A stretch of DNA of 64,000 nucleotides from Branchiostoma floridae (taxonomy: Eukaryota; Chordata; Leptocardii; Amphioxiformes; Branchiostomatidae), in NCBI RefSeq assembly GCF_000003815.2, contig NC_049980.1, positions 25,564,272 to 25,628,271 of the forward strand. Reading direction: 5' to 3'. A program made the translations under genes and the position numbers. This document shows, piece after piece, positions 25,338 to 64,000 of this stretch (position 1 is the first letter of the stretch; each line of letters begins with the position of its first letter). The notes under the pieces were generated by a model. It was not told where the DNA came from and did not search any database. It saw nothing but the letters and a program-made list of their open reading frames with translations.

Positions 25338-28300
25338 TCAAACATAGGTCTCCACTCTGGTTTTCTTCCTAGCACACATTTGTGGAGAATGCTCTTCATC
25401 ATGATTACTATCTACTCCATTACTACTCTCCACAGAGTCACCTCTCCCAAAAGCCTCAACTTCTCTGGTGAATTCCATCTTCTTGTCTTCCTCTGGTGAT
25501 GCAGCACTTTGGGTATCTTTGCTTATCTTCTTACTCTGATCAGCTCCACAGCTATCCCCATCTCCAAGCATCCAGTTGTCTTCTTCACTTTGCTCACTTC
25601 CATCTGATGAGCTTTCTGACATCTCCACAGCCTTCACTGTTGGTGACTCCAGCATTCCGATGTTAGTTAGCTGAGATTTTACGGGCACCATCTCTTCTAA
25701 GGCTTTGGTCAAGGATGAGACTTCCAGGCTTGAAAATGAAGTGATGCTGCCATCCTTGCTCTCACTGTCAGGTCCCCTAGTGTTGCTGATTGATGTGCTG
25801 TAATTGAGCGCTGCTGAGGATGTGATGGCAGAAACTTCCAGGCTGGTTTCAGAGAGGATGCTGTCATTCCTGGACCTACTTGTAAGGCTTGCCTGTACTT
25901 TTGCTAGATGAGAACTTTCCATTGGCACTGATCCTTGTTGATCTTCTGTTGTCAATTCTTCATCTTCTCTTGTCACAGGGTCACTGTGTGCTGATGATGA
26001 CTCTTCTTTAGCCCCATTGTTTGGTTGGTCCAGGCTAGTCACAGACATTTCCAAGGCAGATATTTGAGTCAAGTCATCCTCAAAAGCTGACCTTTCTTGG
26101 AGAGACTGCAGGAGTTTGTGGTGAACTATGTGTGAGTTTTTACCCTCCTTGCTGAGAGTATGAGATGCTGGATCCAGCTGGAGAGACTCCTTGCTTGTGG
26201 AACTGCCACTGTCACCCTCACTGTCACTGCTTTCCTCTGTAGCACTGCTGATGAAGCTGGAGTCAGTTGTGTAGCTCATTTTGTCCATAGCTTGACATTC
26301 CTGCAAGGACCTGAATCGGTAATCCAGAAAGTCTTGCCGGTCCAGCAGACTTGCTGGTACCCCACTGTCTGTGGTTTGCGCATTACCAGCTTCTACTGTG
26401 CTAGCAGTGGTCATACCTGCTGCCTTGTCATTGCTGTCACTGGGGCTTTGCTGCTTTTCTACCTCCTGCGGCCAATAGTGAACTTCTACAGGAGCTGCAG
26501 AAGACCCTGCCTCCATTGTTGATACCACAACACTATCTTGGTCCTGAGCTTCCATGTAGAAGGATTCTTTTCCATCCAAACTGAGAGATACAGCAGAATC
26601 CTCTGCCTTACTCATGTCATGGTACTCTGTCACTGTATCTGCTGATCCATCAATAGCTGACTGCCAGTGCAAATCAGTAGTGTTTGCCTCTGAGATGGTG
26701 TTGGTGCTATCATCCTTGTCAGGCCGTTGAACTGTACCTGTTACAGTTGGTGACACTTTGAATCTGCCATTGTCATCAGATCCGTTCAGACTTGATGTTG
26801 CTTCCATCTGCTTCTGCTCCTTGGCACTAGTGGACATTTTCTCTCTCTCCACACTGTACGAGGCAGGATCTGCATCTTGTGCAGCCAGATCAGATTGTGA
26901 TGCTCTGTTTGATTTTGTATTCTGTCTTTTTGCTTTGGCTTCAAATGTTTGAATGAGCTGCCCGACGGACTTGGACTTCCTGGCCAGGAAGCTCCATCGC
27001 TTACTCAGCAAGCTTGAGCTACTGCTTGGCTCGTAATGTGGTTGCAGAGGACTCTCCTTGAGAAAAGGTTGCTGCATCTGGTGCAGCCTGCTTGTCACAA
27101 TGGGTGTGGAGTGGGTGTGCTGTTCTGCAGGCATGTGGCTGTCGTATATCTCAATGTCCTCTGGGTTATTGTATATCTTCAGTTCCCGGTCCCTCTTAAA
27201 AACGACCACACCTTCATCTCTCTCACTTGTGGCACTCTTCTCATGGAAAGCTGAATTTATGAAACAAGAAGAAACAATTTTTTGGTTAATAATAAGTATG
27301 CCACTGTTGAAGAAATATGCCCATTTCCAAGTAAAAGAGTACATTACCTCAAATCATGCCATTGACTTTGACAGAAGAAAATCCAGCTGAGACAATCAAA
27401 TTATATGACATATGACACAGAACATGCCAAAGATAGCCCACAAAATAATCTTTGCAGTAAAATATAGAAATTGCAAAGAAAAAAGATGATATGCAGCTCA
27501 TAAACCTGGGTTGGACAAGTCCACTAACCCAAATGTCCAGAGCAAGTGAAAGTGCTGATCCTGAGGCATGTCCTACCCTAACCCACTTGTCTGATCGGGC
27601 ATGTAAGATTTTTTCATGACAGAGATTTTTATATACCTTTCACAGTCATAGCATCAAGCATTGGTCAACACAGAAAAATAGAGCCTGCAAACAATGAAAT
27701 AATTCCATTGATGGAATTGAAAATACTAATAGACAAATGTCATTCAAATGTCCGGACAAGTGAAAAGCAAGTAGTTCAGGCAAGTAAATTTTCTATGTAC
27801 TTGCCCGATAGTTCAAGTGAATTTTAGAAAACTTGTCCAACCCTGATAAACTATGAGCAGGTGTACATTATCTGTAATGAATTCAATCCTTTTCTGTAAA
27901 GAAACGCTCTTTGCCTTACATTGACTGTTCTGAGCTCTCTGGTAGTGAATGGGGCTCTCCCGGAAGGTGAAGTTGTGTTCCCTGATGTTGCTGACAGCAT
28001 GTAGCGCGTTGTCCAGCACAGACTGGAACTTTGGTGGGAAGGGTGGGAGGTTCTCCTTGTCACTTGTGTCAAATGCAGACAGACTCCCCTGTTTGGGTAA
28101 CAATCTCCTGTACAGAACACACAAAAATGGCATTTAAGGTTTTATAATTGAACTGCCTATAAATCATTACTAGCAGTCTTACAGGTAATGTAAGCTTCTT
28201 TATGCACCTGTCACTAGACATTTTGGTATCTGTATCTGTATCTATGTAGCCGGTATAACCGCCCTTCGGTGTAACACACCAGTTGGTTATATTGATTATA

Positions 28301-31300: not shown

Positions 31301-34123
31301 TTTGGGTGGCGCAAATGGCTGAAGATTGGAAGAAATCAAATAAACTTTTTACACTATCAGTAGCTGTTCAAAATATAGAGATCACAGAATAAAGAGAGCA
31401 ATGAAAATAGATAAGATAGTTCATTAGCACACTATCAATACTAACTATGAACATATTTCTATTCTATGGATGCTCAAATATATAAAAAAACACACAACTG
31501 TGATCATCAAAACACTCTGATATCGAGTTCAGCACCAAGGACAGGCATATCCCATTTTCGTATACCAAAGTTCTGGCTTCAAATCATGTCATTTGCAACC
31601 GCTCTGTGGATTCTCAGGTGGTAGAAGTTAAGAACTATTGAATAAGAGAAAATATTGACATGAAAACAGGGTTGGACAAGTCCACTAGCCCCATTGTTCA
31701 GGGTAAGGGAAAGTGCTGATCAGGCAAGTACATGTCCAACCCAACTTGTTCGATCGGGCAAGTAAGATTTTGATATACCTGTTGCTTTTTACAGTTGTGA
31801 CATCAAGCAATGATCAACATAGAAAAATAAAGGCAGTGATAGAAATTCTATGGCTGGCAGTGAAAATATAAAAGTGACATTTGGATTTTGGGCAAGTGAA
31901 AAATTGCTTCGGGCAAGTAAATTTTTCATGTGCTTGCCCAATAGGACAAGTGAAAGCTTGTCAAACCCTGGAAAATCAGCAGTTTCTACCTACCCCAGAG
32001 TATTTACTTCATCCATCAAAAGATCCAGTCTAGCTCTGTCTTCTGTCCGCTCCAACTGTTTTACTGTAACCCTGCTATGGTTCCAGTTCATCCTGGAAAA
32101 TAAAGCTCTCAAGTCATTACCTGATCTAAGAATACAACAATAGCACCATGTCAAGTACTTGCATCTATTATTCTATACTTTCACCACACAAGATGAATCA
32201 GTAATGCTGCTGTTCCACACAGCATGACAACATCCTTGAGACAAAAACAGGTTAGGCAAAAAAGACTTTTAAATTGAAAGATATCTGTGATTCAATGTCA
32301 GCCACTTGAAATGTCCCCTGAGGCTCTTACTTTTGCATGGTGAAGAATCCCCCAGTCACATACTTAAAGGCTGATGAGCCCGCCTCAACCTTGGACAGCT
32401 GAGTCTCAGGAATGATGGGGATGGTGGAGATGTAGCCTGCTGGCTGGTTGTTCCCACTCCCAGTGTACATCTAGAGCACAGGAGAGAGAGACAGAGGTGT
32501 ACTCAGAGATCTATATTTGTATAAAGTCAGGAAGCTCTAACACCAAAGTTAGAAGACATTAACTTAAGACACAGTGATGGGTCTAAGTCAAAAGGGTTAG
32601 TCTGATCTCCATTCTTCAACTTAAGGTGAAGCTTAAAAGTTCCTCAGTATCATCAGTACATATATCTATCTATTGTATTCATTGTTTTCTTGATAACGAC
32701 TAGCATGACAAATCATGTCAGGTTAATAGGCTGAGAAGTGGGTTTAAGGCTGAATACACTGACAGAAATTACACAGATCACAGCTAGTACTTAGTCTATG
32801 AAAGATGTAAAGTTTATAGATACCTACCCTTCCATATCCAAGAAGTTCCACACCTTTCTTTCCCCTTGGCATAGAGGTATGCAGTGCTAACAGGGAGCTG
32901 GCGGATGACCTAGTCTCCTGTGAATCAAGTAAAAGTTATGATATAAAAATTCCGTCTATTTTGATAAGTAGTGTACATTACCTAAATAACATTCTACTTT
33001 ATTTTATAAATTCATAAATGGACAAACTACTGATGTTGCTGATTGCATTACCATGACACTATCTCCAGATGCTCCTGTTGTGACTTCCCCGTTGCTGAGG
33101 GCTACAGCATGCATGTACATCTGGTCCAGCAGGATCAGCATCTTTTTATTCTTCTTCTTGTCTCTCTCCAGTGCCCAGTCCTGAAGGAGTACACAAACAC
33201 ATTGAATACATGAAATTACAAGTCCTCTACATATTACCTGGCAAGGTTGAATCTATAGCATCTACTGTAAGGCATCTATCTGCTGCAAGTCCTCTGCCAA
33301 TAGACAATACTTGAAGTGACATGAGCTGTTGTGAAAAGTCCACCCTACCTTTGGTGTCCTTCCCTCATTATCATGTAGCCTGATATTTCCCCCTGCCCTG
33401 ACCAGTCTCAGTAGAATGCCCGTCTTGCAGCTCCAGGCAGCAGCGTGGACTGGAGTGCTGCCATTGTCTGAACGTCTGAGGAAACACAACATCAGACCAA
33501 CCCAGAAGTCTTTCTCATCTATCTCACAGCATTTTTGAAGTATGAATCAAAATTATTACTGAACATATATTTATGGTTAGTTTTAGAAAATCCTGTTGTG
33601 ATAGATGTCTGGTACAATCTGATACCCCATCTTTTGTGGATTATTAAATGTAACTTTATCTTTCTTGACTATACAGATAAAAACTTACTCATTTGCATTT
33701 GCTCCATATTTCAGGAGGAGCTTCACAGTCTTCTCTTTACCCAAGTAACAGGCACAGAAGAGTGCTGTCTGGTCCCTGGAGTTGGGATAATCCACCCTTG
33801 TTCCTGTGGAAACAAATGGTATTGATAGTGGTATATCCAACATTGACATATTCAATCCATCATTGTTTATCAAAAGGTGCAACTAAGATATATATATATA
33901 TTTATATGACTCTAATACATAGGATCAAATTGGAGCACTGGAACAGACATTCTGTCTACAAAGAAACAAAACAGTTAACAAGGAAATTCCAGTCAACACA
34001 TACATGCAGATATGCCTTACCTTCCTTCAGTAGTTTCTTGACAACATGGACCTTCCCCTTCCTTGTAGCAGCGTGCAGCTGTCCACCCTGGCCATCTTCA
34101 GAAAGCCAACCAAGGGAGATCAT
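25338..34123 (-). CDS. TEX14: TEX14-type ankyrin-repeat pseudokinase
   Basis: Fifteen coding exons: 34021-34123, 33689-33803, 33349-33475, 33052-33180, 32828-32917, 32331-32470, 31994-32092, 31195-31318, 31011-31067, 30669-30838, 29479-29639, 28913-29109, 28464-28675, 27920-28107, 25338-27250. They total 3,825 nt, about 1,274 residues (human about 1,497). ATG 34123 follows an in-frame TAA. Residues 1-120 are ankyrin repeats with GSTPVHAAAWS and GGNIRLHDNEGRTPK, near-identical to human TEX14. The kinase-like region (about 235-500) keeps the beta-3 lysine VTVKQL and APE (WLAPEI), but HRD is HCC (358-360) and DFG is LGN (376-378), so catalysis is not expected. A KEN box (DKENLPP, 592-594) and a long Ser/Glu-rich tail follow. 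In vertebrates TEX14 blocks CEP55-driven abscission to keep germ-cell bridges. The boundaries of exon 28464-28675 are the least certain. Confidence 0.92.
27508..27843. mobile_element. MITE-like family 'gggttggacaagt', copy 1
   Basis: Begins gggttggacaagtcc and ends acttgtccaaccc, so it has terminal inverted repeats of about 13 bp. The interior carries repeated 'gggcaagtaa' / 'ttgcccgata' blocks. No coding. It lies in a TEX14 intron. Copies 2 and 3 are at 31669-31968 and 62651-62929. Confidence 0.75.
29717..30181. mobile_element. MITE-like element with about 33-bp terminal inverted repeats in a TEX14 intron
   Basis: Left end aggccacgttgatttgatta (and on through tatggatgacatcc) matches the reverse complement of the right end with one mismatch. 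The interior is A/T-rich without a frame of interest. A diverged relative lies near 37800-38115. Confidence 0.75.
30494..30572 (+). repeat. Tandem duplication, two copies of about 40 bp
   Basis: 'gactgtatatagtgtataatgaa' and 'gactgtatatagtttataatgaa' repeat with similar flanks in a TEX14 intron. Confidence 0.65.
31528..31544 (+). repeat. Dispersed 17-mer TTCAGCACCAAGGACAG, copy 2
   Basis: Exact 17-nt match to 9613 and 48128, here followed by gcatatcccattttcg. It is in the TEX14 intron between exons 31195-31318 and 31994-32092. Confidence 0.8.
31669..31968. mobile_element. MITE-like family 'gggttggacaagt', copy 2
   Basis: Starts gggttggacaagtccacta and ends agcttgtcaaaccc. Its interior aligns with copies 1 and 3 (cgatcgggcaagtaagatttt, gtgcttgcccaatagg). 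It lies in the next but one TEX14 intron cluster from copy 1. Confidence 0.75.
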
Positions 34124-41299: not shown

Positions 41300-46758
<5,459 letters not shown>

Positions 46759-48844: not shown

Positions 48845-51161
48845 CTAGCAGTAGACAACGGCTAGAGGGTTGTCGCACACTCGCAAATCCTTGTTGAAGA
48901 CCAGGGTGGCCGGGCAGTGCATGAGGATGGGCGCGTCGTGCCCCGGGGAGCAGACGTAGTAGATGCTGCTGCAGTCGTTCTCTAGGAGGAAGAAGTTCAG
49001 TTCGTTGCACATCAAACCCGGACTGAACGGCACAACAGCCCCCTCGGTGATGACGGGAGCGGTGGTGGGTACGAATGGCGGAGGTGTGGAGACTGTGTGT
49101 GGCACAGGAATTGAGTTAGTTCAGTATGGATCAATGAAATAGCTTTACCCAAATCCTGAATTAGGATGAGAGAGGAAGAGAAATTGTTGGACCAATGAAA
49201 GGCACGATGAATAAGTACATATAGATATGATAAGAAGAAATCAAAACATTGGTAACTGTTCTATACATGTAATGGTTATCCTTTTATAGTTTAAGGTATT
49301 CACAATATTAGATATTAGATCACAGTTGCACGTTTGGTCTTGATAAGATCTACCTCCAAATGACAATCTATCTAATTATGGTGTTTAAGTCCATTTCACA
49401 ACACTATAAATTCACGATATGTCTCTTTTTAACAAAAGAAAACTCACCATATGTCTCACACATCTTTCCCTCGTATGGAGCAGGACAGCTGCAAGAGAAG
49501 TCAGCCACCAGGTCCTGACACACCCCTCCGTTCTGACAAGGGTTGGGGCTGCACTCATCAAGATCTATGGAAAGAGAAACGTAAAAGCTTCTTGGAACAT
49601 TTTACTGACTAAAAAGTTGTTTAGACAGTACCAAGAATGAGACATACCAGGCAAAAAATGACCGTCACATCATAGAGCCCCCAAGAGGCTATTCAACCAC
49701 TATGTAGATGTATAGTAAGATACTTACCCATTTCGCACGTGGCCCCGTTCCATCCAGGCTGACATGAGCAGGTAAATGTAGCCCCGCTTGCAGAACACAC
49801 GCCTCCGTTTTGACAAGGTCTGGTGCCACAGGGGTCCACTGTGGAATAATGCCATAGGTGGAATATAAAAGATGTAAAATCAACGTTTCTACATGAACAT
49901 GCACAAGTAAGGCTGAACAATGGAGCAATGGACAAGCATTGTGTTATCTTTGACCTACATCTGCTAGACGGCAAACTACGCAGAACTTACCATATGCCTC
50001 ACACGTCTTGCCCTGGTATGAAGGTAGGCAATGGCAGACGAAGTCACCACCCAGGTCCTGGCATAACCCTCCGTTCTGACAAGGGTTGGGACTGCAGTCA
50101 TCAAGATCTGCAGAATCAAAAACACATACATGTTTGTAGCCGTTGTCTCCATAAATGAGAAAGCATGGCTTCACTCTAATTCATAACGTCATCAGTAGAC
50201 CTGAATTCGCAAGGGGTTCTGAAGGGTTTTGCAAATGTCAAATTGACAGAGAGCTTTATCGTCAATACAGAGGGATTGCATTGGGGGGTTGTCTCTACAC
50301 AACAATTAGTTGTTCCGTTTCTTACCTATCTGGCAAGAGGCGCCGGCCAGTCCAGATTGACATGAGCAGTAGGGCACGAGGTCCGGCCAGTCGCACACTC
50401 CGAGGTCCTTATTAAAGACGAGGTTAGCGGGGCAGTGCATGTGGATAGGCGCGTCCTGTCCCGGCGAGCAGACGTAGTAGATGCTGCTACAGTCGTTCTC
50501 CACGAGGAAGAAGGTCCAGCCATCGCATTTCATGCCGGCGATGAAGGCGCCAATGATGACGGGGACATCGGTTGTAGACGGCACCGCGGTAGACGTGCCT
50601 GAAAACATAACATGTCTGTCACCATGGGATAGCATGTAATGTAAGTTTTGCTACGTATATTTGCTACATTTCTGCATGGTGACATATGTTTGAAATAATA
50701 CATCTTCATGCAATGACTGTTTTCGGCACCAATGTAACAGTTTTACATGCATATGGAAAAGAAAGAATGCACGTTTCTTTGCTGATGCATGCAGACAAAC
50801 TCGTCCACTTTGTCCAGACAGGTCCCTCCATTCTGACAAGAACTGCACGAATCATCGGAACGGCACAATGCCAGAAAGCTGTTGATGATGCGAAATTAAA
50901 GCAAAAATGGCCAGGATAACCCTACTGAATCGGCCCAAGGCTATTACAGACAAAGACATGTGACCAGGAGCTCCAGTTTTCTTGTGAGTTAGAAAAGTAT
51001 GCTCCCCCGTTATCCCGTTTTCACCTACCCTGTGGTGCGGTGGTCGGTATGGGCGTTGCTGCGCGGTCCACAACCGGTAATACGCCATGACTCTTAGGTT
51101 CAGACACCAGCGGGGTACAGGACACCCAAGTCACCAGGGACAGGAGGATGAGAAACTTCAT
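48845..51161 (-). CDS. Gene A: secreted ChtBD2-EGF3-ChtBD2 protein
   Basis: Six exons: 51029-51161, 50326-50598, 49991-50107, 49728-49838, 49448-49564, 48845-49092 (stop TAG). They total 999 nt, 332 residues. [15 protein letters not shown] is a signal peptide. Two chitin-binding type 2 (peritrophin-A) domains share the core [13 protein letters not shown], with six cysteines; between them are three EGF domains. Internal introns are all phase 1. The product is extracellular and expected to bind chitin or glycan; bivalent binding could cross-link. I chose ATG 51161 over the in-frame 51209 because a minus-strand TATA box lies at 51242-51248, which would leave almost no leader for 51209. The EGF exons of the DxDEC type carry the CxDxxxxFxC hydroxylation motif. 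Confidence 0.88.
50781..50858 (-). pseudogene. Relic EGF exon inside intron 1 of gene A
   Basis: The reverse complement reads [22 protein letters not shown], then MHQQ. This is the first two-thirds of a DxDDC-type EGF (four of six cysteines, hydroxylation motif kept), ending without the last two cysteines and without a clear donor. It looks like a decayed extra EGF exon. Confidence 0.65.
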
Positions 51162-51237
51162 CGTGGTCACGTCAAAACTGCGCTTTGTGAACAGCTTTGG
51201 TGTCGTCAATTGCTATCACGGTGCAACGTCAGCGTTT

Positions 51238-51600
51238 AACGTTATATATGCAGATACGAGTATACACAAGTCCAGTAGTCATTAAACAAATAAAGGGACT
51301 TCCGACTGACCCGTCTGACTGCAATCAGAAAAGGCCTCCACACGGTAACATCTGTTAAACATCCCAGTATGAACGTATTGAGCATACTCAGCGCGATGCG
51401 ATGTAATGTTTATACACGGGGCTAGTTAGCCATTTTATAGGATGGAGCTTGTTGAGATATAATACGAGCAATATATGTTGAAGGGGAAGAGTGACATGTA
51501 CAAAATTCATGTACCCCGATTCTCTGAAGGATAGTTAATGAGTCTCATTCTTAATGGGGATGTTGGTATACGTTTTTGAATGTTATACCTAAAATCTAGC
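51238..51600 (-). promoter_or_regulatory. Gene A promoter (TATA box) and duplicated flank block 1
   Basis: TATATAA lies on the minus strand at 51242-51248, about 80 bp upstream of the gene A start. The rest of the block, up to 51600, is shared with 48338-48700 and 57870-58110 and lies between gene A and the 3' end of gene B. Confidence 0.6.
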
Positions 51601-51841
51601 TGTTAAGCAACAACATATAGTATTGGGCTGTTGATATCAGCAAAGAAAACAAAACAAAAGACAAAGAGCGTCTGACCATGAATGATACCCCTTTATTCAG
51701 CACCAAATGCATTATGCACTACATATTCCAATCGATGCTTTTCTTACACGATGACCAGCAGAGACAGATGGTCAAACAAAAGTGTATAGTTAATGTAGCA
51801 CAATGGTTATTGGCATGGTTTAGAGGGTAACCCGTCATATT

Positions 51842-54800
51842 CTAGCAGTAGACAACGGCTAGCGGGTTGTCGCACACTCGGATGTCCTTGTTGAAGACCA
51901 GAGTGGCCGGGCAGTGCATGAGGATGGGCGCGTCGTGCCCCGGGGAGCAGACGTAGTAGATGTTGCTGCAGTCGGAATCCAGCAGGAAGAAGTTGAGCCC
52001 GTTGCAGGTCAACCCCGGACTGAACGGCACAACAGCCCCCTCGGTGATGACGGGAGCGGTGGTGGGTATGTACGGCGGAGGTGTGGAGACTGTGTGTGGC
52101 ACAGGGATTGTTTGCATTATGTGTCAATCTATTAAAGAACTTGACCTATAGCCTAACTAGGGAGAAGTAAGGCCTCTGATAAAGGTGACAAAAGCGAGCA
52201 GCAGTCTACTCACCATATATCTCGCACGTCTTGCCCTCGTATAGAGGCGGACAACTGCAAGAGAAGTCAGCCACCAGGTCCTGACACACCCCTCCGTTCT
52301 GACAAGGGTTGGGACTGCACTCGTCAAGATCTACGAAACAGTAACAGTTCTCTTTTACCAACTCGGTCTAGATGTGTAGCCAGTATAAAGCTATACAAAT
52401 GATATATGAATTACCTGGCGAAAACAAATTCCAAGGTCATAGAGCAAGTTCCTTACTTGTTCCGCAAGTGGCCCCGTTCCATCCAGGCTGACATGAGCAG
52501 GTAAATGTAGCGCCGCTTGCAGAACACACGCCTCCGTTTTGACAAGGTCCGCTGTTACAGGGGCTCACTGTGGAATGAGAATCATGTTGAGGTGCGATAT
52601 ATCGGATGGTTGGACCGTTGGGTATTTCAACAACGTTACTCGCAAATTAATTATGAAGCACCAAGGAGAGGGGCACGGGAAGAGAAATGTTATCCAAAGA
52701 TGTTGGGGAAATGGCCTAAGTCACTTAAATAGCTCTTATGTAACGCCTGATTTTCCAACTGATAAGCACTAGCTAACTCACCATATGTCTCGCACATCTT
52801 GCCCTCGTATGAAGCAGGACAACTGCAGGAGAAGTCAGCCACCAGGTCCTGACACACCCCTCCGTTCTGACAAGGGTTGGGACTGCACTCGTCAATGTCT
52901 TATGAAAGAAAACATTACAACAACTATTCCTCTTACAAGACTATTGATGTGGTGAGTGATAATGCACAAAAGAATACAATGGAACAGCTTTCTCGTTCAA
53001 AATAGACTGCGTAATCATTGCCCAGTGAAATAAGAAAGGTCCTTACTCATTCCGCAAGTGGCCCCGTTCCATCCAGGCTGACACGAGCAGGTAAAAGCAG
53101 CGCCGCTTGCAGAACACACGCCTCCGTTTTGACAAGGTCCGCTGCCACATGGATCCACTGTGGAAGGAGAATAATCTCATAGGTGCGATATATTAGACGT
53201 TTGGACCGTTGGATATTTCACTAACGTTACTCGCAAAAAGATGTACCAGTTTTATAAAAAGATCTCGGAGATATGGCTTGAGTCAATTCTTATGTAACAG
53301 ATAAATAATAACGTAAGGCCCTCAATTTTCCAACTAGAGAAGCATAGAACTCACCGTATGTCTCACACATCTTGCCCTCGTATGGAGCAGGACAACTGCA
53401 AGAGAAGTCAGCCACCAGGTCCTGACACACTCCTCCGTTCTGACAAGGGTTGGGACTGCACTCGTCAATGTCTAAGGGAGGGGCATATTATAAATCACAT
53501 TCCTATTACAAGACTATTGATGCTTAGAATTATTATCTACTTAGCAGTTATGTGCAGTCATCAAGAACAGATTCCTCTCACAAAATCGAATGTGTAATTA
53601 GTCATGCCAAAGATCCTTACTCATTTCGCAAGCGGTTCCGTTCCACCCAGGCTGACATGAGCAGGTAAATGTAGCGCCGCTTGCAGAACACACGCCTCCG
53701 TTTTGACAAGGTCCGCTTCCGCAAGGGTTCACTAAGGCCGATATAAGAATATTATTAAAAGTGCGATTTACCAAATAGTTGGACATGGCATTACGTCGTA
53801 AAAATTCCATGCAACATCGAGGACGGGAAAAGAATGCAAGAAACAGTTTCATCAAAAGGAGACGGCGGGAAAATTTGGGGACAAATATCAGTAGGCTCTC
53901 TTGTGATTTTGATAAAGATATGAACCGCACTCTTTGCCTGCTCAGAACCATAATAGAACTTACCATATATCTCGCACATCTTGCCTTCGTATGGAGCAGG
54001 ACAACTGCAAGAGAAGTCAGCCAACAGGTCCTGACACACCCCTCCGTTCTGACAAGGGTCTGGGCTGCACTCGTCTATGTCTAGGGAAACGATAAATTCA
54101 TAACACATTCCAATCACAATCCGAAAGGTAAACATTGATGGAGTGCGTGCCTATCTATAGCGTACACGTCAGCGGAGGGACGTCTCAAAATACATGTGCG
54201 AGCTTATATCATATGATCAGAAGTCGCTTCATAGCGGCAGGGAAAAGTGAAAAGTTCGGTGACTTTGATAGCTCTGTGGCGATAGGAGGGACACGCCCTG
54301 CTCGTACTGAAAGTTTATTGTTCAGAAAGATACTTTACCACAGACACAGCTGAATTGCGAGGAAAAGGTTTCTTCGAAAGGCTAGATCTGACCGAGGGAA
54401 CATTATTTGTAAGTCTATGACTTACTCATTTCACAAAAGTTGCCGTTCCATCCAGGTTGACACGAGCATGTAACTTTATTGCCGCTCACAGAACACACGC
54501 CTCCGTGTTGACATGGTTCACTGTTACAGGGGTCCACTGAGGAAGAGGCAGGGGCATCAATGTTAACGTTAGAGGCAAAAGATGTAATCAGGTTGTGCGT
54601 AAGGACCACATGTTAGCTATTAGACTGGGCGATGGAAAATAAAGTGGGGGGCAGTTTTATCGGAAAATGAGGAATAGAATGAGGCAAACACTTAGTTGCT
54701 GTTGTCATTATAGTATATCTCTAATCTTCTTCTGCTAGATGATAAACAACACAGAACCTACCAAATATCTCACACGTCTTGCCCTGGTATGAAGGCAGGC

Positions 54801-57345
54801 AATGGCAGCACCCAGGTCCTGGCATAACCCTCCGTTCTGACAAGGGTTAGGACTGCAGTCATCAAGATCTACAGGAACAACAAAACAGATATATAATAGA
54901 GGTAGAATAAATGTCAACGATTGTCACCACCTGTAAAGAGGCTAGCTGGAAAGATATGATGAAACAAAAGCCCTGCAACATAATCTGCATAGTTACGCAG
55001 AAATTTTTACAATGAACGCGATGAATTTGTTGAAGCTGTTTTTTTTTTCATTTTACCTAACGTCCGTCTCTAATCGTGGCCAGCAACTTACTTATTTGAC
55101 AAGAGGCGCCGGCCAGTCCATGACATGAGCAGTAGGGCACGCGGTCCGGCCAGTCGCACACCCCGAGGTCCTTGTTGAAGACGAGGTTAGCCGGACAGTG
55201 GAAGAGGATGGGCGCGTCGTGCCCCGGGGAGCAGACGTAGTAGATGCTGCTGCAATCGTTCTCCACGAGGAAGAAGGTCCAGCCGTCGCACATCATGCCG
55301 GAGATGTACGAGCCGATGATGACGGGGACGGCGGTGGAGGACGGCCCCGTCGGATCTGGAGGAGAATATATATATTCTGTATATATATCGCACAGAGGTC
55401 GTACACTGTAAGCACGTACAACTCACCACTTGCGCAACGAACGATGCACGCATCCGCTCACGGCCAGGCGTTGCGTGCAGACCACATACTTACACCTTGC
55501 GCAACCGTGCGAGTGGCGCTCGTTGAGACGTACTCCCTCCCTGCTCTTGCCATTCCTTCTCCAATGTCTCAGAAAAACGTGCGGACGCGGCCTCGCAAAA
55601 AAACGTACAGACAAAAAAAAAAAACGGCGGGTTGTGCCCTTAGCTTTAACGATAACAAACGTCGCAATGACTTTTTTCATATGTGAGAAATGGAAATATA
55701 ACATGTCATTTTCCTTAGGCGTTCGGTCGGAACGTCGGAAAAAAGAATACTGGACCCTGGAAATAGAGTAGAAACAGTGCATTTCAGTAAAGATTTGCAG
55801 GGAAAGAGAAAATGAATAATAGAAGCATGACAGATATAGACAATGCAATATAGAATATACCTGGATTAGGGATTGGATCGCAGCAGAAGCGGACTTCATA
55901 GTCCAGGCATGCCCCGTCACTCTGGTCTGAGTTCCAACACGCTAAGCCGACTTCCGGCCTATAGTCCCTGAAGACTTGTCCTGTCTGGGAAGCATCGATG
56001 TGAGTCCCCACGGTACGGGCTTGGACAGCCGACGGGACTGAGCAGGGTACCCGTCCGGGATACCAAGCGTGAATTGTTGGAAGGTCTTCAAAGTCCCCAT
56101 TGCCGCTAGGATGGTCACGGTTAATCCAGCGCGTCCAGTTGGAACATTCTGAAATACATATGAAAATATATATAAACGAAGCACTTTGTTTTTAAGACCT
56201 TTTTATGACATGGAGCTCAAGACCAACAGCTTGTGAGCGTAAAATTATCACGAATAACCAAATGTAATATTGTTCACATGCGTTCAAGCAACACTCACTA
56301 TGGTCTCCAAGAGACCTATACACTCCATACATCTTCTTAGAGATAAGTCTAGGGTTATCTTTTAACATCAAGAATACAAGTACAGTTTGTAATTACCAGA
56401 CGGAGGGTGGACTGTCGGACAGGACCTACCGCCCGCTCCTACAAGAAGCGTTGTCGCAGCAAAGACAATTCTCCACATCTTCGGTGTTGCAGTACACGCC
56501 GTGCTACTTAAGCTTTAAGCTGGATTCACACCTGCGTATATTTACAACTGCTTATGAGGGCCGTACGAAATTCTGTGAATACGCAGCCGCACGCCCAACA
56601 TGTGGAATTTATCGTAATAGATTAAGTTATACGTCACGCCCATCTGGCGTATAAATAACGACTTCAGCATGTACATTCCGCATAAGGTGCGTATGATTTG
56701 CATATGAAGTGCGCAACATCATTTCCCGTGCCGCTAATAGCTGCGTATGAGTTACATATGCTGAGCGTATTCCGGACATACAGGGCGTAGTGGGCGTATA
56801 TTTTCGTATGCCTGCGTACTTGAAACTTTCACAAAACGATTCAGATGCGTATGAGGTGCGTATTGTGAGTACGGCCGCGGAAGAAATGAGCCAATGTCAA
56901 TACGGAACTCATATGGCTTGAAAATATACACACGTGTGAACCCCCCTTTAAGGGCACAACCCGTTGTACGTGCAACTACGTGCTATCTACGTGCTAAAGC
57001 GTGGACAATTTTCTGGGATCCGTAACGCCATTCCTCTTCGGCAGGAGTCAAGATACTGTTAGTTTTACACAACATTCATTTCCAGGCCAGATCTTTTTGT
57101 TTTGCCATACATTCGGAGTAATGTTTGTCGTGAACACAATTTTTTTTCTGGCTCGAAAAGTTTACAACCTCATTATCCCGTATTCACCTACCATATGCTA
57201 GCGGCAGTATTGCATCCCTTGCCCTCATGTCGCTGAAGGCTGTGCTGTCCGGAGCCGGGGAGTCGCCATCACTGTTCGGTTCAGCCAGCGGCGGTGCACA
57301 TGACACCCAAGTCACCAGGGACAGGAGGATGATGAGGAGCAGCAT
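51842..57345 (-). CDS. Gene B: secreted WxxW-ChtBD2-EGF(9)-ChtBD2 protein, one EGF exon frameshifted
   Basis: Exons: 57192-57345, 55861-56148, 55092-55355, 54762-54868 (broken), 54426-54536, 53964-54080, 53621-53731, 53355-53471, 53047-53157, 52782-52898, 52457-52567, 52214-52330, 51842-52089. Signal peptide [16 protein letters not shown] (an upstream in-frame ATG is at 57402). Exon 2 is a WxxW mucin/CILP-type domain ([15 protein letters not shown] ... [10 protein letters not shown]). Then come ChtBD2, EGF exons alternating 117 and 111 nt, and the C-terminal ChtBD2. The 54762-54868 exon is 107 nt instead of 117: 10 nt (acgaagtcac) present in its paralogs are missing. Skipping that exon keeps the frame (621 residues, eight EGF); including it breaks it. 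It is either exon-skipped, a young pseudogene, or a sequence error. Extracellular chitin/mucin matrix role is inferred. Confidence 0.8.
54762..54868 (-). pseudogene. Gene B EGF exon with a 10-nt deletion
   Basis: Compared with 49991-50107 (gene A) and 61409-61525 (gene C), which encode [15 protein letters not shown], this copy lacks 10 nt after the GGDF/VGDF-equivalent position. The last three cysteines are lost from the frame. Splice sites remain intact. Confidence 0.85.
55356..55860. other. Gene B intron with TA-rich tract
   Basis: A short (TA)n run at about 55364-55390 lies next to the point where genes B and C stop resembling each other. The rest is unremarkable; frames on both strands here (up to 165 codons) overlap each other and show no exon signals. 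Confidence 0.5.
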
Positions 57346-57402
57346 CGTCACCACGTCAAAACTGCACTTAGCGAGCAGCTTTTGTGTCCTCAAATTTTTC
57401 AC

Positions 57403-58371
57403 ACCGCGTTCCGTTACGTCAGTGTTTAAACAAGGAAACTATGATTATGTACCTTGAACGAGTTCATTGGCCAAATGGGGGTATTACATATATTAAGAAA
57501 TTTGACTTTACTACTATAGTGTTTTGCTAAATATTGTGACGAATGATATTTGTCGCACGTGTGAATGAATGGAATATGGTGCAATTGTAGTAAACTAATC
57601 TATATAACAAAAAAACTCAACTGTGCAGTAGAAGCACACTATAGATCCCTCTATAAATTTCAGGTTGTTAAGCATTGTACAAACAGGATGGTCTGACGGA
57701 CGTGTTGAACGGTTATGCCTTCATATTGGTTATTTACCTGGTAGTGGTAACCTTTGGCATTTACCAAACATTTCATTCAGCATGACGGAAGCATTGAGCT
57801 TATCGCAGAAACCGTCGTGCGGTGTGAACGTGCATGCACGTATGGTGATGACCTTGGACTTTGTAATCCGGAATGGCACAATGTCAGTCTCAGATACCTC
57901 GTTGCGATGTAATGTTTATACACGGGGCTGGCGACACTGAAGGCTAATTAGCCATTAGGATGTACTTGTTGAGACATAATGTAAGCAATATATGTTGAAG
58001 GGCAAGATTGACAAATGTACAAAATTCATGTACTCCGATTCTCTGAAGGATACTTAAAGAGTCCCTTTATCAAAGGGTATACTGGTATACGTTTTTTAGG
58101 TTACACCTAGAATCTAGCTGTTAAGTAAGAACAGATATTGGGCTTTTCATATCAGCTAAGAAACTTAAAAGAAAAGACAACGACTCGATTGTCTGACCAT
58201 GATTTCCTTTATTCAGCACCAAAGGCATGTTGCACTACATATCCCAATGGATGTTTTTGGTTACACAGACAAATGATCAAACAAAAGTGTCAAGTTATAG
58301 TAACACTTTGCTTATCAGGACTGTGATTGTTTTAGCATACAATGTAGAATAAGAGGGTAACCCGTCATCTT
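57403..58371. other. Gene B upstream region and flank block 2
   Basis: No exon. 57870-58110 repeats the flank block (gcgatgtaatgtttatacac, gcaatatatgttgaagg, ccgattctctgaaggata), nearly matching 51405-51545. 58200-58215 carries tttattcagcaccaaa as at 51693. Confidence 0.6.
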
Positions 58372-61300
58372 CTAGCAGTAGACAACGGCTAGCGGGTTGT
58401 CGCACACTCGGATGTCCTTGTTGAAGACCAGAGTGGCCGGACAGTGCATGAGGATGGGGGCGTCGTGCCCCGGGGAGCAGACGTAGTAGATGTTGCTGCA
58501 GTCGGAATCCAGCAGGAAGAAGTTGAGCCCGTTGCAGGTCAACCCCGGACTGAACGGCACAACAGCCCCCTCGGTGATGACGGGAGCGGTGGTGGGTACG
58601 AATGGCGGAGGTGTGGAGACTGTGTGTGGCACAGGAATTGAGTTAGTTCAGTATGGATCAATGAAATAGCTTTACCCAAATCCTGAATTAGGATGAGAGA
58701 GGAAGAGAAATTGTTGGACCAATGAAAGGCACGATGAATAAGTACATATAGATATGATAAGAAGAAATCAAAACATTGGTAACTGTTCTATACATGTAAT
58801 GGTTATCCTTTTATATGGATGACGGGAGCGGTGGTGGGTACGTATGGCGGAGGCGTGGAGACTGTAGGTGGCACAGGGATTGTTTGCATTATGTGTCAAT
58901 CGAAGAACTTGACATATAGCCTATAGCTAACTAGGGAGAAGTAAGGCCTCTGATAAAGGTGACAAAAGCGAGCAGCAGTCTACTCACCATATATCTCGCA
59001 CGTCTTGCCCTCGTATAGAGGCGGACAACTGCAAGAGAAGTCAGCCACCAGGTCCTGACACACCCCTCCGTTCTGACAAGGGTTGGGGCTGCACTCGTCA
59101 AGATCTACGAAACAGTAACAGTTCTCTTTTGCCAACTCGGTCTAGATGTGTAGCCAGTATAAAGCTATACAAATGATATATGAATTACCTGGCGAAAACA
59201 AATTCCAAGGTCATAGAGCAAGTTCCTTACTTGTTCCGCAAGTGGCCCCGTTCCAGCCAGGCTGACATGAGCAGGTAAATGTAGCGCCGCTTGCAGAACA
59301 CACGCCTCCGTTTTGACAAGGTCCGCTGTTACAGGGGCTCACTGTGGAATGAGAATCATGTTGAGGTGCTATATATCAGATGGTTGGACCGTTGGGTATT
59401 TCACCAACGTTACTCGCAAAATGATTATGTAGTACCAAGGAGAGGGGCAAGGGAAGAGAAATGTTATTCAAAGATCTTGGGGAAACGGCCTTAGTCACTT
59501 TAGTAGCTCTTATGTAACGCCTGATTTTCCAACTTATAAGCACTAGATAACTCACCATATGTCTCGCACATCTTGCCCTCATATGGTGCAGGACAGCTGC
59601 AAGAGAAGTCAGCCACCAGGTCCTGACACAGCCCTCCGTTCTGACAAGGATTCGGGTTGCACTCGTCAATGTCTGCGGAAAGAAAACATTGCAAAAACCA
59701 CTCGTCTTACAAGACTATTGATGTAGTGAGTGATAATGCAATACAAATAGCTGGGTAATTATGGGTTAAAATAACAGTGTTGCATTCGTCAAGATCTACG
59801 AAAAGAATACAATGGAACAGCTTCCTCGTACAAATCATTGCCCAGTGAAATGAGAAAGGTCCATACTTATTCCGCAGGTGGCCCCGTTCCATCCAGGCTG
59901 ACATGAACAGGTAAATGTAGCACCGCTTGCAGAACACACGCCTCCGTTTTGACAAGGTCCGCTGCCACATGGATCCACTATGGAAGAGAAGGAGAACAAT
60001 GTTATAGGTGCGATATATTAGATTGGATATTTCACTAACGTTACTCGCAAAAGATATAACAGTTTTATGAAAAAAATGGCTTGAGTCAATTCTTATGTAA
60101 CAGCTAGATAAAAACGTAAGGCCCTCAATTTCCCAACTAGAGCAGCAGTCAACTTACCATATATCTCACACATCTTGCCCTCGTATGGAGCAGGACAACT
60201 GCAGGAGAAGTCAGCCACCAGGTCCTGACACACCCCTCCGTTCTGACAAGGGTTGGGGCTGCACTCGTCAATGTCTAAGGGAGGGGCATATCAAAAATTC
60301 CTCTTACAAGACTATTGATGCTTAGAATTATCATACGACTCTGATTAGCAGTTACGTGCAGTCATCAAGAACAGATTCCTCTCATAAAATCGAATGTGTA
60401 GCCATGCAAAAGATCCTTACTCATTCCGCACGTGGTACCGTTCCATCCTGGCTGACATGAGCAGGTAAATGTAGCTCCACTGGCAGAACACACGCCTCCG
60501 TTTTGACAAGGTCCGCTGCCGCAAGGGCTCACTAAGGCCGATATAAGAATAATATCAAAAGTGCGATTTACGAAATAGTTGGACATGGCACTACGTCGTA
60601 AAAATTCCATGCAACATCGAGGACGGAGAATAGAATGCAAGAAACAGTTTTATCAAAAGAAGACGGCGGGAAAATTTGGGGACGAACATCAGCAGTCTCT
60701 CTTGTGATTTTGATAAAGGTATGAACCGCACTCTTTGCCTGTTAACAACCAGAATAGAACTTACCATATATCTCACACATCTTGCCCTCGTATGGAGCAG
60801 GGCAGCTGCAAGAGAAGTCAGCCACCAGGTCCTGACACACTCCTCCGTTCTGACAAGGGTCTGGGCTGCACTCATCAATGTCTAGAGAAACGAGATATTC
60901 ATAAAAGATTCCTCTCACAAGCCGAAAAGGTGAAAGTTGATGCAGCAAGTGACCGCAAGTGCGAAAAGATAGTTTACCACAGACACAGCTAAATTGCTGT
61001 TTCTTTCTGAAAATTTTTCTTTGAAAAACTAGATCTGACCGAGGGAACATAATTTGTATGTCTATGACTTACTCATTTCACAAAAGTTGCCGTTCCATCC
61101 AGGCTGACACGAGCATGTAACTTTATTGCCGCTCACAGAACACACGCCTCCGTGTTGGCAAGGTCCACTGTTACAGGGGTCCACTGAGGAAGGGGCGGGG
61201 GCATCAATGTTAACGTTAGAGGCAAAAGATGTAATAGTAATGGAGGTTGTGCGTAAGGACCACATGTTAGACTGGACGATGGAGAATAAGGTGGGGAGCA

Positions 61301-64000
61301 GTTTTATCGGAAAATGAGGAATAGAATGAGGCAAACACTTAGCTGCTGTTGTCATCATAGTTAATCTCTAATCTTCTTCTGTTAGATGATAAACAACACA
61401 GAACCTACCAAATATCTCACACGTCTTGCCCTGGTATGAAGGCAGGCAATGGCAGACGAAGTCGCCAACCAGGTCCTGACATAACCCTCCGTTCTGACAA
61501 GGGTTAGGACTGCAGTCATCAAGATCTACAGGAACAACAAAACAGATAATAGAGTTGAATAAATGTCAATGATTGTCACCACCTGTAAAGAGGCTACCTG
61601 AAAGACATGCGAAAACGTCTGTATACACCGAAATGTTTACCATGAACGCAATGAATTAGTTGAAGTTGTTTATCGTTTTATTTTACCTATCGTCCGTCTC
61701 TAATCGTGACAAGTTTCTTACTTATTTGGCAAGAGGCGCCAGCCAGTCCAGACTGACATGAGCAGTAGGGCACGTGGTCCGGCCAGTCGCACACCCCGAG
61801 GTCTTTGTTGAAGACGAGGTTAGCCGGACAGTTGAAGAGGATAGGCGCGTCGTGCCCCGGGGAGCAGACGTAGTAGATGCTGCTGCAGTCGTTCTCCACG
61901 AGGAAGAAGGTCCAGCCGTCGCACATCATGCCGGAGATGTACGAGCCGATGATGACGGGGACAGCGGTGGAGGACGGCCCCGCCGGGTCAGGTGGAGACA
62001 GGTCTAAAGTATATCAATCAGTAAACTACTTCACATAGTATACTACGTCATGGTCTCATTTGCCATCAACGACAGGTCTGAAATGGCAGCTAATATCACC
62101 CACAACATAAAGCGAAACGGTACGATATTGAAATCACATGATAAGGAACAGCTAGACATATACATGTTACCTTCATCACACGCGTCACCGCTCCACCCAG
62201 ATGCGCACACGCAGATGTGTCCTCCTTTGTCATCGTTGATGCAGGTTGCACCGTTTTTGCAAGGATTGATGTCGCACAATTCTGGTGTCAAGGAGACAAA
62301 AGTCGTGTAATTTTTTTAACAGAACTTTAGATGTAACAAGGCTCAACCGATTAATAAATGCGCATATTTATAGTCATTGATGTACATATATCTCCATGAT
62401 CTATCTCACCTCCGCAGTAAGAGCCGTTTCCCCAGTACCCTGGGTTGCAGTAGCAGCCTTGGACACCATTCTGTATAGCACAGGTGGCGTTGACGTCACA
62501 GCCACCCCCGGTGCACTGGATGTTGTTCTTGCTGACGCACTCACAGGTCCGGTCACAGCCCTCCCCCCACGTCTGACCGACCTGCAGGGCGATGTTATGA
62601 TGTGATGCAATATTGTGACTAATTTTCATAGCACCAAAGAAGGAAAACAGGGGTGGACAAGTCCACCAGTCCTATTGTCCAGGGCAAGTAAAAGTTCTGA
62701 TCGGACAAGTGCATGACCTACCCCACTTGCCCGATCAGGCAAGTAAGATTTTTCCATTGAGTGAGATTTTGATATACTTTTTGATTTTGAATTAGGTAAA
62801 TTCCATTGCTGGAAAATGCATGTAAAAGTGACATTTGAATTTTTGGCAAGTAAAAAGTTGGTTTGAGCAAGTAATTTTTTTATGTGCTTGCCCGATAGGA
62901 CATTGAATATAAAAAAAATTGGCCAACCCTCGAAAACCTTTAAAGGACACGTTATGATCAACAGACTATGACGAAAACACTCCACCACTAACGTGCGTAC
63001 AACGTACAGCACTTACAGCGTAGTACAATCCATCCCTGGTGCAGCCGCACTGCTCCCGGAGGACGCACTGGTCCCCGCTCAGGACGTACCCGGCGTCACA
63101 CTCGCACCCCTCCACACACGTCGTGTTGCAGTAGAGCGGCGCGGACACGTCCGTACAGGTGGCGGGACAGGCGCTAGAGCACGGGTCATAGTGGCTGCTC
63201 GCTGGGCAGGACAGGGCTGCAAGGGAATAAATGCAGCATTATGACATATGCATTCTACAGATGCACATAGTGAATGAAAACAGGGGATTCAACAGTCGTA
63301 CACCGGCTGTCGATTGAATAGATGGATCACGTGAAGGTGTGCCGCAGTTCTGTTATGATGCTTCACCAGACATTAATCATGGCACAGACCCCAGAATAGT
63401 GTACCAATACACCATATTTGCTCCATTAGATGCCACCATTTTTATGGAACCGTTAACTCTGGATCTCCCTTGACGTGTCCACACATGACAGGAGCAGGCT
63501 AGGTAAACTGTAGATTTTCAGATTCATTTCCCCACCGGTAAATACGACGGAAACTCACGGCAGAAGGACGTGTTTCTCCACGACCCCACGTTGATGCCAG
63601 CTTCAGCGCAGGCGTCGGCGTAGGCCTGGAGGTTGTTGCAGAGGGAAGTCTCGTCGCCGTTCAGGGCACACATGTCGTACACACAGGTCTGGTACGTTCC
63701 CTGCAGAACATGGCGAAATAAACATTGCACCTTTTGCAGTAGATAGTGTGATCATTCTGATCTTTTTGGCATGTTACCATGATCTTTCATTTCAATTCTG
63801 AAAGAATTGTCAAGAATAAAGAGGCACTCTCCCAGGCTTGTGTATACGTATGTTCTTGAACAGTGCAGACTATGTGTTACTGCCCGACATTTATGAGAAT
63901 CTTATGACGCTTGTTTGCGTCAGTCGTTTGAGTTTATAGCTCAGAAAAGAAAAATATGGCCCCACCTCAGGGTTCAGAGTAGAGTAACATGCAGCGAAGG
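58372..64000 (-). CDS. Gene C: C8-TIL-VWC/EGF mucin-type protein ending in the ChtBD2-EGF(9)-ChtBD2 cassette, 5' end outside window
   Basis: Sixteen exons in view: 63966-64000+, 63559-63700, 63017-63216, 62410-62581, 62171-62281, 61722-62003, 61409-61525, 61073-61183, 60765-60881, 60421-60531, 60158-60274, 59867-59977, 59556-59672, 59231-59341, 58988-59104, 58372-58619. In protein order: end of a C8 domain ([11 protein letters not shown] ... TCVYDMCA), a TIL domain ([10 protein letters not shown] ... CEC), a VWC-like/EGF exon ([12 protein letters not shown] ... CDVNATC), one divergent EGF, ChtBD2, nine EGF in alternating 39- and 37-residue types, ChtBD2 and stop. C8 and TIL normally follow a VWD domain in zonadhesin, IgGFc-binding protein and gel-forming mucins, so a VWD is expected beyond the edge. 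Its first EGF of the series (61409-61525) is intact where gene B's is broken. Secreted; multimer-forming mucin core plus chitin binding is inferred. Confidence 0.87.
58590..58875 (-). repeat. A-type sequence tract embedded in gene C, with duplicated junction
   Basis: From about 58575 to 58815 the sequence appears identical by eye to gene A 49050-49289 (exon edge plus intron). At 58817 'gatgacgggagcggtggtgg' occurs a second time and is followed by B-like sequence (compare 52047-52130). A partial copy of the last-exon 5' end therefore remains in the intron. Confidence 0.8.
62651..62929. mobile_element. MITE-like family 'gggttggacaagt', copy 3
   Basis: Starts ggggtggacaagtccacc and ends aattggccaaccc. 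Its interior aligns with the copies at 27508 and 31669 (gcccgatcaggcaagtaaga, gtgcttgcccgatagg). It lies in a gene C intron. Confidence 0.7.

Follow-up and report, generated by a model that had tools for sequence, protein, structure and literature searches.

A tandem gene cluster of Branchiostoma floridae with candidate chitin-anchored matrix proteins and interchangeable N-terminal modules

A 64,000-nucleotide stretch of the Branchiostoma floridae genome (C2:25564272-25628271 in the scanned assembly of 513,431,437 bases and 431 contigs; hereafter the window) carries three genes of a tandem cluster, here called A, B, and C, which continues past position 64000 with two further CBM14 genes, D and E. 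Judged from their sequences, we give an even chance to the explanation that these five genes form a tandem family whose products are secreted matrix proteins, anchored to chitin and bearing front ends that have been shuffled. All three window genes lie on the minus strand, could be modeled exon by exon on consensus splice signals, and have Pfam scores that make a chance arrangement unlikely. A preliminary description of the window had proposed a tandem cluster in which a ChtBD2-(EGF)n-ChtBD2 cassette is joined to different front ends, and both the exon models and the domain scans agree with it: a signal-peptide exon is common to A, B, and C, as is a cassette of two CBM14 domains (CBM1 and CBM2) enclosing a variable number of EGF units. 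With the exception of a damaged EGF1 in gene B, every EGF and CBM1 exon of A-C fits phase 1-1. Genes A, B, and C all terminate at the sixth cysteine of CBM2, and a CBM14 stands directly before the stop codon in five consecutive genes (A-E), each of which contains CBM_14 above the Pfam gathering score with six cysteines.

The simplest member, gene A (51161-48845), has six exons and a fully open frame of 332 amino acids, which encodes a signal peptide, CBM14, three EGFs, and CBM14, with Pfam matches to CBM_14 and EGF. Its signal-peptide exon (51029..51161, phase 0-1) has 78% DNA identity to the exon 1 region of gene B, while that of gene C was likened to them by eye. The CBM1 exon of gene A (50326..50598) carries a short tail resembling the C-terminal half of an EGF and is followed by three phase 1-1 EGF exons (EGF1-EGF3, 49448..50107) and by the CBM2 exon with the stop codon (48845..49092). 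Gene B (57345-51842) has 13 exons, which encode a signal peptide (57192..57345), a WxxW domain (55861..56148, phase 1-1), CBM1 (55092..55355), nine EGF exons, and CBM2 with the stop codon (51842..52089). Both of its CBM_14 domains were recovered by Pfam, as was Mucin2_WxxW (PF13330, E = 4.9e-22), which bears out the mucin-type domain previously assigned to this gene. All eight solved-structure matches of the WxxW exon are MUC2, MUC5AC, or MUC5B, and this CysD-like domain, a trait of gel-forming mucins, is present in gene B alone among A-C. Eight of its EGF exons are intact (EGF2-EGF9, 52214..54536), while EGF1 (54762..54868) is 107 nt long vs. 117 due to a 10-bp deletion that shifts the frame. 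The earlier count of three or nine EGF units thus stands for A (three) and C (nine), but not for B, which has eight intact units and a frameshifted one.

Gene C was found to be an FCGBP-like protein rather than a polymerizing mucin. In the preliminary description it was followed to the window edge and expected to run beyond position 64000; it does not stop at the edge, and from genomic DNA we completed it as an open frame of 22 exons and 1547 amino acids. Fifteen exons lie wholly inside the window (63700-58372) and seven more lie 5' of them, the last of which crosses the edge (exon C8a, 64095-63966, of which 63966..64000 is within the window), with five further exons and the signal-peptide exon beyond it at 64398-67969. 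The encoded order is signal peptide, EGF, IgGFc_binding (PF17517, E = 3.1e-76, profile positions 1-297 of 297), EGF_CA, a VWD spread over two exons, C8, TIL, a TILa-like unit, EGF, and the cassette. The C8-TIL-VWC modules formerly attributed to gene C are confirmed for C8 (second half at 63559..63700, E = 5.8e-15) and TIL (63017..63216, E = 1.1e-12), but the supposed VWC exon (62410..62581) is a sub-threshold TILa/EGF_3 match (TILa 25.8 bits against a cut-off of 27, EGF_3 27.9 against 28.5). It is followed by an extra EGF ahead of the cassette (EGF0, 62171..62281), CBM1 (61722..62003), nine phase 1-1 EGF exons in which calcium-type and other EGFs alternate (EGF1-EGF9, 58988..61525), and CBM2 with the stop codon (58372..58619). 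A Pfam scan of a 727-residue part of gene C listed EGF (10 stretches), C8, and TIL, with CBM_14 unlisted there, and in the genome scan both of its CBM14s exceeded the CBM_14 cut-off (47.5 bits for CBM1 and 36.9 for CBM2).

Among solved chains, the gene C VWD matches FCGBP best, with VWF and mucins ranked below it in a list where multi-domain chains sum their scores; the IgGFc piece had no match at E 0.01 in the same type of search. GDPH cleavage sites in the VWD are typical of FCGBP, and none occurs in the 1547-residue gene C model; we therefore call the protein FCGBP-like rather than FCGBP. Like FCGBP, it combines IgGFc_binding with VWD, C8, TIL, and TILa-like units. Unlike FCGBP, it has one D-type unit and a CBM14-EGF9-CBM14 tail, whereas human FCGBP has many D-type units. 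The preliminary description had also suggested that gene C provides a polymerizing mucin backbone, which its architecture does not support: there is a single VWD-C8-TIL unit next to an IgGFc_binding domain, no D1-D2-D'D3 assembly was found in it, and A, B, and C all end in CBM14 with no C-terminal cystine knot. Nor is there a long proline/threonine/serine tract, as the highest combined share of these residues per 50 was 0.46 in A, 0.38 in B, and 0.38 in the 727-residue part of C, the N-terminal 820 residues of C being outside this test.

The earlier suggestion that further copies might lie past position 64000 proved correct, as we found D and E there and a paralogue, F, elsewhere on the same contig. 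It should be noted that these three were read exon by exon rather than as full spliced models, and that D and E are given in window coordinates continued past 64000. Gene D (about 83-69 kb) encodes a NIDO domain in three pieces, SRCR (profile positions 34-100), 34 EGF exons with phase-1-compatible splice sites (69663-79735), a Thr/Pro linker, and CBM14. The calcium-type consensus fits 17 of these 34 EGFs; an additional EGF-like exon near 77.3 kb looks broken and was left out of the count. Gene E (about 92-86 kb) encodes NIDO, SRCR, three EGFs, an intron-split CBM14 (first part 26.4 bits against a cut-off of 22.1), EGF, and CBM14. Paralogue F (C2:24.90-24.93 Mb, 0.7 Mb from the cluster) is likewise FCGBP-like with CBM14; its stretch (C2:24903001-24928400), partly N, carries the FCGBP-like part and, downstream of it, calcium-type EGFs, CBM14-EGF, pentaxin (1.9e-25), EGF, and CBM14. 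Counting only matches of at least 45% identity and at least 30 amino acids, its FCGBP core is 49-76% identical to that of gene C when compared piecewise (72% for IgGFc, 49 and 63% for VWD, and 76% for TIL). We matched by eye the genome-wide lists of IgGFc_binding (n = 62) and CBM14 (n = 103), both of which are lower bounds, with intron-split CBM14s escaping detection; among the matches listed, a CBM14 occurs within 100 kb of just two IgGFc_binding domains, those at C2:24.93 and C2:25.63 Mb. From these domain layouts, we consider it possible, though unlikely, that a mucus protein of the FCGBP family is directly anchored to chitin (C and F) and that its arm was passed to the WxxW and NIDO-SRCR front ends.

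The relationships among the genes were apparent at several levels. Three blocks with 83-89% identity, spanning exons as well as introns, are colinear between B and C, and their introns (ten) are 89% identical across 1739 aligned bases. Over 464 codons, excluding the frameshifted EGF1 of B, they differ by 0.016 nonsynonymous (dN) and 0.165 synonymous (dS) substitutions per site, a dN/dS ratio of 0.10. As far as sequence divergence can date it, these values show the B/C duplication to be recent. In a tree of the EGF units, those of B and C pair by position at units 2, 3, 4, 6, 8, and 9, but not 5 and 7, and therefore the nine-unit arm would predate the B/C split. Calcium-type EGFs occupy the odd positions and alternate with another type at the even ones; the consensus fits five stretches in C, two in A, and four in B (without EGF1), which equals the number of intact odd repeats in each. 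Counts of 1+2x1 and 1+2x4 suggest that the arms grew by pairs. A tree of CBM14s, which has few columns and 25 of 44 forks unresolved, placed the domains of A-E and F in one group (SH-aLRT support 98; 10 of 51 rows). In this group, CBM1 and CBM2 of the three genes A-C cluster with one another (89), and the simplest origin of the double-CBM cassette is thus a duplication in the ancestor of these genes. The presence of the same combination in F suggests an early origin of the FCGBP core with its CBM tail and a later loss of the core from A and B, the latter of which has its WxxW exon instead. Phase-1 introns bound the whole FCGBP core on both sides and the WxxW exon likewise.

Traces of such exchange may also persist in noncoding parts of the cluster. 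Intron 1 of gene A contains, outside the gene model, a relic of a decayed type-1 EGF exon (50772..50878), found by local alignment, which scores 54 against EGF1 of C (best of 200 shuffles, 29). It was rejected as a counterpart of EGF0 of C, against which it scores 21. No such relic was found in the first two introns of B, whose scores of 31 and 29 equal the maxima of 100 shuffles. Near the 3' end of C, a shortened copy of the beginning of the last exon is joined to gene-A-like intron sequence (58818..58861), a recombination scar that could yield a short alternative end lacking CBM2. Taken together, the relic exon, the crossover scar, and EGF arms of 3, 9, and 34 units would record module swapping at phase-1 introns at several stages.

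Whether the CBM14s are suited to bind chitin was judged from the chitin-binding domain of CHIT1, for which a structure is available (PMC4844120) and in which alanine scanning identified Pro451, Leu454, and Trp465 as high-impact residues, Trp465 being the strongest (PMC5459812). After these positions were transferred by hand to the window domains, anchored on the cysteines, the Pro, Leu, and Trp were all present in CBM1 of A (CDWP), B, and C. The same three residues are retained in the CBM of D and the last CBM of E. Several observations weigh against the proposed family of chitin-anchored proteins, however. CBM2 retains the Pro and Leu, but has Asn for Trp in all three window genes (CDNP), and a CBM14 need not bind chitin. 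An AlphaFold2 prediction of CBM1 of A, made from an alignment with the remaining five CBMs of the window, was too poor for use (mean predicted local distance difference test score 46.4). Unless splicing leaves out EGF1 or the base calls are in error, gene B is frameshifted. In addition, gene A appears from its sequence to be less tightly held than B and C, with dN/dS of 0.26 against C (283 codons) and 0.27 against B (242 codons), and for its EGF2 alone 0.70 against EGF8 of C and 1.01 against EGF8 of B; here EGF2 and EGF3 of A were paired with units 8 and 9 by our choice, and pairwise ratios are silent on which copy is constrained.

The Asn of CBM2 bears directly upon the former view of these proteins as bivalent chitin binders, which it disfavors. 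Since the CBM of D and the last CBM of E retain the Trp, Asn is most simply read as the derived state. We also surveyed 48 of the 95 listed CBM14s outside the cluster, with four reads corrected by eye, and found Trp in 30. The remaining 18 lack it, and the Asn of CBM2 is therefore no more than suggestive evidence against bivalency; a fungal CBM14 complex likewise shows that family members depend on different residues (PMC6128652). Six near-identical tandem CBM14s at C4:6.56-6.58 Mb, which have the best Pfam scores in the scan, all carry Asn after the fifth cysteine and are among these 18. From the sequences, we favor one canonical anchor per protein, alongside a second CBM whose ligand may or may not be chitin. 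A broader doubt is that the CBM14s are disulfide-rich structural modules, or modules for ligands other than chitin, in otherwise ordinary EGF matrix proteins. The Asn in all three CBM2s would fit this, as would a polyphenol-binding protein among the structure-database matches of CBM2, a very weak match (E = 1.6); given that CBM1 of A-C, the CBM of D, and the last CBM of E all keep the whole triad, we think it improbable.

An equally slim chance is given to A and B being degenerating by-products of C, produced by unequal crossing-over, with the EGF1 frameshift making B a pseudogene. The deletion in B, the relic in A, the scar in C, and the weak constraint on EGF2 of A could all be read in this way. 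Conversely, the B:C dN/dS is low, A is fully open, and so are the remaining exons of B, whose EGF1 is flanked by phase-1 introns such that skipping it would preserve the frame; thus, we do not favor a pseudogene. Mis-assembly of haplotypes was considered as well and dropped, as A, B, and C have distinct front ends within one contig, although no read check was made.

If these genes do encode a chitin-anchored family, the CBM14s with a canonical triad (CBM1 in A-C and the C-terminal domain in D and E) would dock on chitin, and the EGF array would form a spacer, 3, 8-9, or 34 units long and stiffened by calcium, in which the two EGF types alternate throughout the nine units of C and through most of the 34 of D. 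Each front end would then sit in or catch a partner, as an FCGBP-like mucus protein in C, a CysD-like mucin-type domain in B, and a NIDO-SRCR contact with glycoproteins or microbes in D and E. Acting together, the proteins would attach mucus, along with recognition modules, to a meshwork of chitin, for example the membrane of the lancelet gut. Chitin membranes have been reported in the B. floridae gut (PMC6109156), in keeping with the chitin-based gut barrier envisaged in the preliminary description. The same source places VCBP-C on the gut membrane of Ciona, the animal from which its membrane proteome comes, along with a gel-forming mucin that has a chitin-binding domain, and proposes that chordate gut barriers shifted from chitin to mucin. 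FCGBP occurs in secreted mucus, where it is attached to MUC2 non-covalently (PMC10285406).

The same modules might instead belong to the feeding apparatus or to surface mucus, such as an endostyle net or an adhesive secretion. Lancelets filter-feed with endostyle mucus nets (PMC6109156), and a protein set from limpet adhesive mucus includes vWFD, C8, TIL, EGF, and the chitin-binding type II domain (PMC7333891). That precedent comes from another phylum, however, and a chitin anchor is most useful where chitin is laid down, as has been shown for the B. floridae gut (PMC6109156), so we regard a feeding or surface role as doubtful. Somewhat harder to accept, and in our estimate quite unlikely, is that the cluster primarily encodes immune recognition proteins, chitin-tethered or fungus-binding in the manner of VCBPs, in which SRCR, IgGFc, and pentaxin would do the recognizing. 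SRCR occurs in both D and E and pentaxin in F, amphioxus is known to fuse chitin-binding and recognition domains in VCBP (PMC2632668) and PGRP (PMC4610682), and VCBP expression is mostly in the gut (PMC4757023). Gene A, on the other hand, has no recognition module, and the EGF arms of B and C evolve slowly.

Comparison with known systems places the proposed chitin-anchored proteins near several of them. One is Ci-GFM1 of Ciona, also a mucus-type D-assembly protein, which sits on the gut chitin membrane of a chordate and has a chitin-binding domain, but one with D1, D2, D'D3, D4, VWC, and a cystine knot (PMC6109156), whereas gene C has an FCGBP core, an EGF arm, and no cystine knot. VCBPs are likewise secreted protochordate proteins with an N-terminal recognition module and a chitin-binding domain; they have two Ig-V domains, of which allelic variation is the hallmark, whereas A-C have an EGF spacer and other front ends, and Pfam scans found no Ig-V domain in A, B (front part and CBM2), or C (727 residues and five 5' pieces). 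Peritrophins, whose layout is CBM14 repeats with mucin linkers, share the CBM_14 anchors in secreted proteins, but not the EGF arrays or the VWD, IgGFc, SRCR, WxxW, and NIDO modules of A-E. In amphioxus PGRP, a chitin-binding domain has similarly been shuffled onto another functional domain, though there it is hevein-like rather than CBM14 and its partner is an amidase (PMC4610682). More than 250 chitin-binding ORFs have been reported in amphioxus (PMC2632668). Mucus-type CBM14 proteins on a chordate chitin barrier have thus been published (Ci-GFM1 and VCBP-C; PMC6109156), and the former claim of an undescribed barrier-matrix system is not supported. Chitin-binding domains joined to mucus or immune modules are already known in protochordates, and it is the present combination that appears to be new: we found no description of an FCGBP-CBM14 fusion or of such a cluster in the open-licence literature, as judged by title and abstract opening, with related terms occurring for abalone shell matrix (PMC6003135) and the Oikopleura house (PMC3390340). 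If the chitin membrane of the gut is where these proteins reside, FCGBP would be a second mucus component, beside gel-forming mucin, that began on chitin, and a second protein family would link the invertebrate peritrophic matrix to vertebrate mucus. Gut expression of A-F would make them named candidates as constituents of the lancelet membrane, among them an FCGBP-like protein that carries a chitin anchor of its own.

Elsewhere in the window, the cluster is adjoined by a squalene epoxidase gene (43155-45730, plus strand; the Pfam SE domain is matched in two pieces). At 12921-19544 (minus strand), one open frame of 2207 amino acids has no Pfam match at E 0.001. The gene at 7332-11560 (minus strand) has a PWWP domain and a piece without a Pfam match (7332-7622); judged by eye from a motif, it may be DNMT3-like. 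Lastly, a dispersed repeat occurs at 62643-62930, within an intron of gene C, and again at 31662-31948 and 27502-27844.

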